Assembly: GCF_001269385.1 (NCBI RefSeq)
Contig: NZ_CXOO01000031.1
Span: 1 to 64,000, forward strand
Direction of reading: 5' to 3'
DNA length: 64,000 nucleotides
DNA from: Limnohabitans sp. DM1
GTDB lineage: Bacteria > Pseudomonadota > Gammaproteobacteria > Burkholderiales > Burkholderiaceae_C
Positions within the stretch are counted from its first letter, which is position 1. Each line of letters begins with the position of its first letter. Shown piece after piece: positions 11,772 to 38,790 of this stretch. Under the pieces are notes generated by a model. The model was not told the origin of the DNA, did not search any database, and worked only from the letters and a program-made list of their open reading frames with translations. Both the position numbers and the translations under genes were made by a program.

Positions 11772-11944
11772 TATAGATTCGGCCCGATGAAGTCTGAGCC
11801 GTGTTGCCAGTTGGGAGGAGTTTGTGGGAGCTTCCAGCCAAGCGAAAAGCCAGTGGTCCACAAGCGTCTGATCGCCAGCAGGGCCAGCTCCCACAAGGTG
11901 CAAGATTGAAGTCACCCTGCACACTTCACAGGGCCGGATCAATA
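11772..11944 (+). mobile_element. MITE-like element, copy 1 (TA-flanked, inverted-repeat ends)
   Basis: A 169-bp core (11774-11942) is bounded by TA on both sides. The ends are imperfect inverted repeats: the left reads TAGATTCGGCCCGATGAAGT, and the reverse complement of the right end matches it at 16 of 20 positions. Inside is a perfect 11-bp inverted repeat (TTGTGGGAGCT at 11822-11832, AGCTCCCACAA at 11886-11896). A close copy lies at 38496-38672 in the same orientation. No transposase is encoded, so it is non-autonomous. It sits between the 3' end of aspS and the promoter region of mgtA. Short open frames across it are not credible proteins. Confidence 0.8.
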
Positions 11945-38100: not shown

Positions 38101-38790
38101 GTGTCAGCGTCGCCTTTGGTGACCCCACAAAAACCTGGGGAAATTGGTCAACTTTGTTCAGCCGCCCCGGCAAGCCGAAAATTGGATCGATCAACCAGGG
38201 CAGCACCCAGCACTTGGCGGCTCAATTGCCACCTTGGGCAATCTGCTGGTGCAAGTGTTTCCTTACAACGGCACACATGCAGTCATGAACGCATTGCGCG
38301 GGGGTCAAATTGACGCTTCGGTTGCAGTTTTAGGCCTGCCGAAACCACACATCAGTGCCAAGTCCGTGCGGCTGCTTGGCGTGATGGGCCAGCGTCGTCC
38401 CCAAGACATGCCGCAAGTGCCCACTGTGCGCGATTTGCTCGGACTGAGCCAGCTCAACGTGTCCTCGTGGAACGCCTTAGAGCCCCTGAAAACCCCTATA
38501 GATTCGGCCCGATGAAGTCTGAGCCGTGTGTTGCCCGTTGGGAGGATTTTGTGGGAGATTGCCAGCCAAGCGAAAAGCCTGTGGTCCACAAGCGTCTGAT
38601 CGCCAGCAGGGCTAGCTCCCACAAGGTGCAAGAATGAAGTCACCGTGCAAACTTCACAGGGCCGGATCAATAAGGTCATCGTGAATCGCCCGAACCAGGA
38701 ACTGGTCAACGTGCTTGCTCAGCCCGAGTTGGTCCAGCGCATGGCCTACTTCATCGTCCAAGCCAAATTTAAGCAACCATGGTGCTCAGA
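38101..38790 (+). pseudogene. Decayed Bug/TctC-family solute-binding protein gene
   Basis: Scattered in-frame pieces match Bug-type periplasmic binding proteins: a PGKPKIGSINQGSTQHLAAQ piece, then YNGTHAVMNALRGGQIDASV and SVRLLGVMGQRRPQDMPQVP in another frame, then NQELVNVLAQPELVQRM after the inserted repeat at 38496-38672. At least two frameshifts separate the pieces, and about 120 N-terminal residues including the signal peptide are missing. The gene is dead. Removing the inserted element plus one TA joins LKTP to KVIVNRPNQE in frame, so the insertion hit a gene that still had this frame locally. Confidence 0.85.
38496..38672 (+). mobile_element. MITE-like element, copy 2, inserted in the Bug pseudogene
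   Basis: A 173-bp core (38498-38670) lies between two TA dinucleotides. It matches copy 1 (11772-11944) closely along its whole length, with a few substitutions and small indels. Terminal inverted repeats and the internal stem (TTGTGGGAG at 38549-38557, CTCCCACAA at 38616-38624) are conserved. Without the element and one TA the host sequence reads AAAACCCCTAAGGTC, restoring the reading frame of the pseudogene. This supports a TA target duplication as made by Tc1/mariner-IS630 transposases. Confidence 0.85.

Follow-up and report, generated by a model that had tools for sequence, protein, structure and literature searches.

The two short elements in the window, by which we mean the whole 64,000-nucleotide stretch of Limnohabitans DNA analysed here, are best explained as non-autonomous members of the IS1471 group (IS630 family) that enclose a GTAG-type REPIN and were amplified by an IS630 system. 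We put the probability of this reading at about 0.88. Under it, an IS1471-like DDE transposase would recognise the tips and would insert the unit at YTAR sites, within the TA, which is duplicated in the process. The REPIN belongs to a kind of REP doublet whose mobilisation is ascribed to RAYT (Y1) transposases; it would have entered a frame of IS ends, by RAYT insertion or by recombination, and would then have been amplified as a passenger of the IS630 system. Such capture into the tip frame would have involved at least four REPIN types, and the hairpin core may help the element to persist. The element is a new variant built of known kinds: IS1471-type ends and a REPIN filling. The REPIN interior, the presence of several REPIN types in one tip frame and the YTAR target were all missed by an earlier, sequence-only reading of the window.

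Copy 2 occupies positions 38497..38672 on the + strand with both TA included (38499-38672 if one TA only is counted), as judged from full-length alignment, the inverted pairs and an empty site in Limnohabitans planktonicus (locus L155). Copy 1 (11772..11944, + strand) is flanked by two - strand genes, aspS and one for a P-type ATPase. The sequence-only reading had placed copy 2 from 38496 to 38672; the end is right, but base 38496 is a flanking C. As it had also stated, the two elements align end to end, TA is present at both ends of both copies, and the terminal inverted repeats are imperfect, matching at 16 of 20 positions (20 of 25 for the tips TATAGATTCGGCCCGATGAAGTCTG and TATTGATCCGGCCCTGTGAAGTTTG). 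The 25-bp left tip of copy 2 (38497..38521, + strand) agrees in 22 of its first 24 bases with the left end of a Limnohabitans IS630 element (L124), and the first 22 bases of the 25-bp right tip (38648..38672, - strand) are those of the IS1471 right end. Inside the tips stands an inverted pair, TTGTGGGAG.../...CTCCCACAA, which is a GTAG-type REP doublet; this pair of REP-A units and its spacer make up the REPIN core, found without assigned strand at 38549..38624 in copy 2 and at 11822..11896 in copy 1, where the inverted pair is 11 bp long and 100% complementary. With a length of about 175 bp, inverted tips and no transposase gene, the element is a MITE, as had been proposed.

The family is numerous and dispersed. 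In its own genome (a 4.9 Mb draft of 93 contigs) there are at least 43 matches among those listed, with at least 40 near-full-length copies, both window copies counted; these are lower bounds, as 40 of 164 candidates were scored. The other listed matches are two truncated tandem units and one 27-bp piece. The exact tip pattern occurs 96 times in this genome, compared to 0 for the reversed control. Across sampled genomes of the bacterial family it was found in 12 of 299 (own genome included), representing 10 of 141 genera, and the control again gave 0. With up to one mismatch, tip counts were 169 in L. planktonicus II-D5 (G026), 48 in G362, 18 in G359, 12 in G374 and 6 in G405 (both with intact transposases), and 8 in G398 (with transposase fragments). 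Among 49 own copies the mean divergence from the consensus is 4.7%, and tips, arms and core differ little in conservation (0.93 to 0.96 by segment). Low and even divergence suggests a fairly young family. The evenness is uninformative on selection on the core and, since core and tips are about equally conserved, gives no sign of continued use of the core by a RAYT.

Insertion of the whole unit is seen most directly at empty sites. The flanks of copy 2, joined with one TA, read AAAACCCCTAAGGTC, which aligns without a gap at the site to AAAACACCGAAGTTC in the orthologous Bug locus of L. planktonicus (L155), where the site is empty and the gene intact. The alignment is likewise ungapped at the site against six other members of the genus. 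The L. planktonicus dinucleotide here is GA, one base off TA. When the joined flanks of 16 other copies were compared with the same genome, four were contiguous at the site, two sites (L010 and L084) were occupied in both genomes, and the remaining ten gave partial, repeat-only or no match. The TA is unmutated in the empty site of L024, and one base of the dinucleotide is changed in those of L021, L027 and L028 (the L028 alignment has a 20-nt gap elsewhere in the flank). At four of the five sites one base of the L. planktonicus dinucleotide departs from TA, so these four support a 2-bp duplication by length and not by letters; read from the alignments, all five sites thus show the duplication by length, and one of them also by letters. 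The expectation that related strains would carry the empty site was borne out at the Bug locus and at these four other sites.

The gene split by copy 2 is a remnant of a Bug/TctC solute-binding protein gene (approximately 38144..38768, + strand), recognised by PF03401 and by its intact ortholog; the upstream piece matches PF03401 (TctC) over residues 39-118. Three stretches present in L. planktonicus are missing from the window gene: about 378 bp close to its start, 3 nt slightly upstream of the insertion site and, downstream of it, about 168 bp. The MITE insertion is one of several lesions in the gene; a single insertion into an otherwise intact frame does not describe it. The sequence-only reading had taken the restored reading frame as proof of the insertion. 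Joining the flanks with one TA does give the expected sequence, but with further breaks in the gene the frame alone proves less than was claimed. It is the orthologous empty site, and not the restored frame, that carries the case for insertion.

The same empty sites bear on whether the family was spread by recombination or segmental duplication, or is kept as a structured RNA, instead of by transposition. The single-strand DNA fold of the element is strong (z = -3.57), contig C26 holds a truncated tandem array, and some copies, the composites described below, share a left flank, all of which would fit such an origin. However, the outer flanks differ among the listed copies, orthologous pairs aside, the empty sites are precise, and a search of Rfam with the element gave no match up to E = 1. 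We consider this origin the least credible of those weighed here. The array itself (G000:C26:11387-11821, L083) is built of truncated A units in tandem, each about 130-137 bp long, and after them comes a unit whose right end is complete.

To define the target, we used 65 near-full copies with flanks, taken from the fetched loci without requiring TA and including a few orthologous pairs from two genomes. TA is present at the 5' end in 58 of the 65 and at the 3' end in 58 of the 65, in keeping with the TA bounds claimed earlier. Six of the 65 copies (L014, L026, L029, L031, L049 and L091, representing five independent sites) have TC then A at the right end instead of TA. A 2-bp TA duplication had been proposed with TA as the target; the duplication stands, but the target is YTAR rather than TA alone. 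Of the 43 own copies bounded by TA on both sides, 36 sit in YTAR, compared to 8.3% of the TA dinucleotides in the window (65 of 781; binomial tail about 2e-32). These 43 are the TA-bounded members of the 49 own copies, with the outer left flank used for 11 composites.

The composites consist of 47 bp of a type-B-like end joined to a whole A element and occur at 11 sites in the own genome and at one in L. planktonicus. Their outer flanks differ, and 10 of the 11 own composites start with TA. Their presence at varied sites suggests that ends of different subfamilies can work together. Furthermore, nine of the 49 own copies (L008, L018, L022, L025, L030, L056, L064, L081 and L088) adjoin a REP-B unit (GGTCGG or CCGACC) at the TA. 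The number expected by chance, from 338 GTAGGTCGG sites and the TA frequency of the window, is 0.28, a value that is too low, as the 8-mer TAGGTCGG was the criterion for adjacency. The sequence at each of the nine joined sites is Y-TA-GGTCGG or CCGACC-TA-R. Among the 72 occurrences of NTAGGTCGG in own fetched loci (overlaps kept), 59 begin with G and none with C or T. We considered REP-B tags as insertion hot spots, but insertion into intact tags is not supported: the base beyond the TA fits YTAR at all nine sites and never the usual GTAG tag.

The tips connect the element to IS630 transposases. Elements of 1,108-1,118 bp that share these tips, are bounded by TA and contain an IS630 transposase frame were found at L094, L095, L102, L103 and L110, in four genomes, answering the earlier call for an IS630-type element with the same ends; the L094 transposase frame has one internal stop. 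Two representative transposases scored 254 and 224 bits against NF033545 (cut-off 100), and the same-tip IS630 elements in other genera also match PF13358. A Tc1/mariner-IS630-type transposase had been named beforehand from the TA targets, and the IS630 assignment is upheld by the 1.1-kb elements of other genera, which carry the same tips, and by those of Limnohabitans, in which the tips are slightly different. Within the genus, a transposase match was obtained in 12 of 90 genomes, with three intact frames in G374 and one in G405. At both ends the G374 copies differ from the window tips by a few bases. L. planktonicus has only a remnant with stops, 39% identical. In G405, G388 and G389, several transposase pieces start at base 1-3 of a contig, which is the trace of a collapsed IS in a draft assembly. 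We had also considered short transposase pieces in G388, G389 and G017 as internal-deletion derivatives; this was dropped, since many of them start at base 1-3 of a contig.

Among named elements, IS1471 of pIJB1 (NC_019378.1) came nearest in the plasmid collection, with 82.3% protein identity to the query. Previously no matching named family was known to the sequence-only reading; IS1471 is a named relative, its right tip being identical to that of the window element at 22 of 22 positions. In one genome (G282), two IS copies, L103 and L110, differ by 1 base and stand at different TA sites, and the L103 transposase is 96% identical to that of IS1471. The pair points to recent IS activity.

A transposase of the IS630 type acting in trans had been suggested. 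Same-ended IS630 elements do exist elsewhere, but none was found in the own genome as it now stands. A PF13358 profile search of that genome gave no match, tblastn with a same-ended transposase against the 93-contig draft gave 0 matches or fragments at E <= 0.001, and no transposase piece was seen at a contig start at the same threshold. Therefore, action in trans would have been in the past or from DNA outside the assembly. That an IS1471-like transposase moved these copies is what we infer from the tips, the target and the related elements.

The interior has a distribution of its own. The REP-A half-site has 126 matches in the own genome, MITE copies included, compared to 0 for the reversed control. 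In 20 regions chosen for REP-A matches outside the known copies (at least two of which turned out to be further tip-bounded elements), 37 of 42 half-sites had no tip within 170 bp, and many were in tandem. The alignment with the core is nearly full-length for four units without tips, drawn from three own loci, and also for a unit in G017 (L033) that keeps an apparent decayed right tip; similar units without visible tips are present in G017 and G035.

Different cores are found in the same tips. Besides REP-A, we identified the GTAGGTCGG type (B), the GTAGGAGCCCACC type (C) and the GTAGGAGCGGCGCC type (D). A strict GTAG/GTGG doublet test on 140 tip pairs of 72-322 bp from the fetched loci was passed by 61 of 68 own pairs and by 40 of 72 pairs outside the own genome. 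Since resemblance to A guided part of the retrieval of own pairs, type A is over-represented among them, and the share of REPIN cores is no unbiased census. Five of the seven own failures are A copies that missed the tag test; the other two are a partial deletion and an 81-bp form without a core. Short forms without all or part of the core lie at L079 1073-1153 (81 bp) and L371 101-210. The L079 form could equally well be an empty ancestor from before REPIN entry or a deletion at a TGC repeat, and the L371 form may likewise be a deletion or a state from before capture.

The tips also enclose other contents outside Limnohabitans. In Pseudomonas sp. 2FG (L259 328-449) they surround a palindrome of the GTAGGGTGGGTTA type, and TTCGACAAGCTCAG-like palindromes stand within them at L209, L203, L097, L101, L256 and L234. 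In G094, which belongs to a different genus, the same tips flank elements of 374-476 bp with another repeat (L113, L116, L118 and L120); at a fifth locus, L122, the repeat is present and a second tip was not found.

Elements of about 92-96 bp with the same tips and no GTAG core occur in other genera, showing that the frame needs no REPIN. This would fit a plain IS630-derived MITE whose inner palindrome is an unrelated hairpin, REP-like by convergence. Against such convergence, units of the own genome that lack tips match the core along almost all of its length, similar tip-less units occur in the genus, tip-less units form tandem arrays (L290-L292), and three further REPIN types in the frame match REPs beside RAYT genes. 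We regard a plain MITE as very unlikely.

The RAYT genes themselves provide the link for those three types. The own genome has four RAYT matches, three of which are over the cut-off, and the REPs beside these three match tip-bounded cores with at most 2 mismatches over 24 nt: those of L286 match type B, those of L288 type C and those of L287 type D, the last found as cores only in other genomes of the genus. The fourth RAYT-like gene (G000:C31:123327-123707, L289) scored 78 bits, under the cut-off of 80, and its 3.4 kb contain no GTAGGTCGG or GTAGGAGC sequences. REP-A was not found in any of the four RAYT loci (about 3.4 kb each), so that among them the window core type has no RAYT partner. 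Together, the YTAR target and the matches between RAYT-associated REPs and cores add support to the reading of a REPIN carried in an IS1471-type frame.

Four RAYT-type matches in the genome, and the abundance of tip-less REP-A units, are also what one would see if this were a REPIN/BIME family moved by RAYT alone, with the outer tips as hitch-hiking flanks. The dispersed unit, however, stops at the tips and TA and not at the REPIN ends, the tips are common to different cores, IS630 elements with such tips exist, and the empty sites fit insertion of the whole unit. Movement by RAYT alone is accordingly less plausible still than convergence in a plain MITE, though slightly less remote than spread without transposition.

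An extension of the preferred reading, an IS630-mobilised frame with a REPIN passenger, is that the unit is doubly mobile. The IS630 DDE transposase would move the unit while a RAYT could still copy the core in or out; REPINs would ride between genomes in IS1471-type frames, and the frames would repeatedly gain new cores. We think this rather unlikely, but its consequences would be broad, as it would give REPIN families a general route beyond their resident RAYTs. The usual view ties REPINs to a resident RAYT. The portion of PMC3116915 consulted is in line with this. The IS-end frame offers a concrete vehicle by which REP types might change or spread; a frame with at least four GTAG REPIN types in one genus makes the vehicle hypothesis testable. 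The family also links a named IS to MITEs and REPs within a single lineage and provides a large natural set of copies with usable empty sites. Here two unrelated selfish DNA systems appear one inside the other, as a single unit dispersed across the genome of a freshwater bacterium.

Among open-access papers, titles and opening lines of abstracts contained nothing on REPINs inside IS630 MITEs or on this element family; the matches for IS1471 were sorghum papers, which from the listing we judged unrelated. The Correia, RUP and Nezha MITEs are not known to have REPIN cores. The window element resembles these in being short, with IS-like inverted tips and no coding capacity; in the sections consulted, Correia and RUP are IS630-derived bacterial MITEs (PMC2817692) and Nezha is a bacterial MITE (PMC3733652). 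Some ISs use REPs as targets (PMC2817692, in part, citing Tobes and Pareja 2006), which recalls the nine of 49 own copies that adjoin a REP-B unit at the TA. Here, however, the REP is also cargo, and the joined sites are not intact REP-B tags.

Closer to the interior are RAYT genes of P. putida and P. fluorescens, described as flanked by GTAG units joined to unrelated stem-loops (PMC3733652). These too are REPs joined to other inverted repeats, with hundreds of copies reported, whereas DDE transposase ends and TA duplication do not figure in the section 'REPs and tyrosine transposases' of that paper. The window core has the inverted, GTAG/GTGG-tagged REP doublet of REPINs, and in the parts of PMC3116915, PMC3733652 and PMC2817692 consulted, as in the own genome, RAYT genes are flanked by REPs. 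The present family differs in that no RAYT was found beside REP-A and the REPIN lies within a DDE-type tip frame, with which it is copied along. IS1471 is the counterpart of that frame: it shares the right tip and is bounded by TA, and there is 88-89% identity between its transposase and those of the Limnohabitans elements. It differs in being about 1,116 bp long and encoding a transposase, while the window element has neither that length nor the gene and holds a REPIN.
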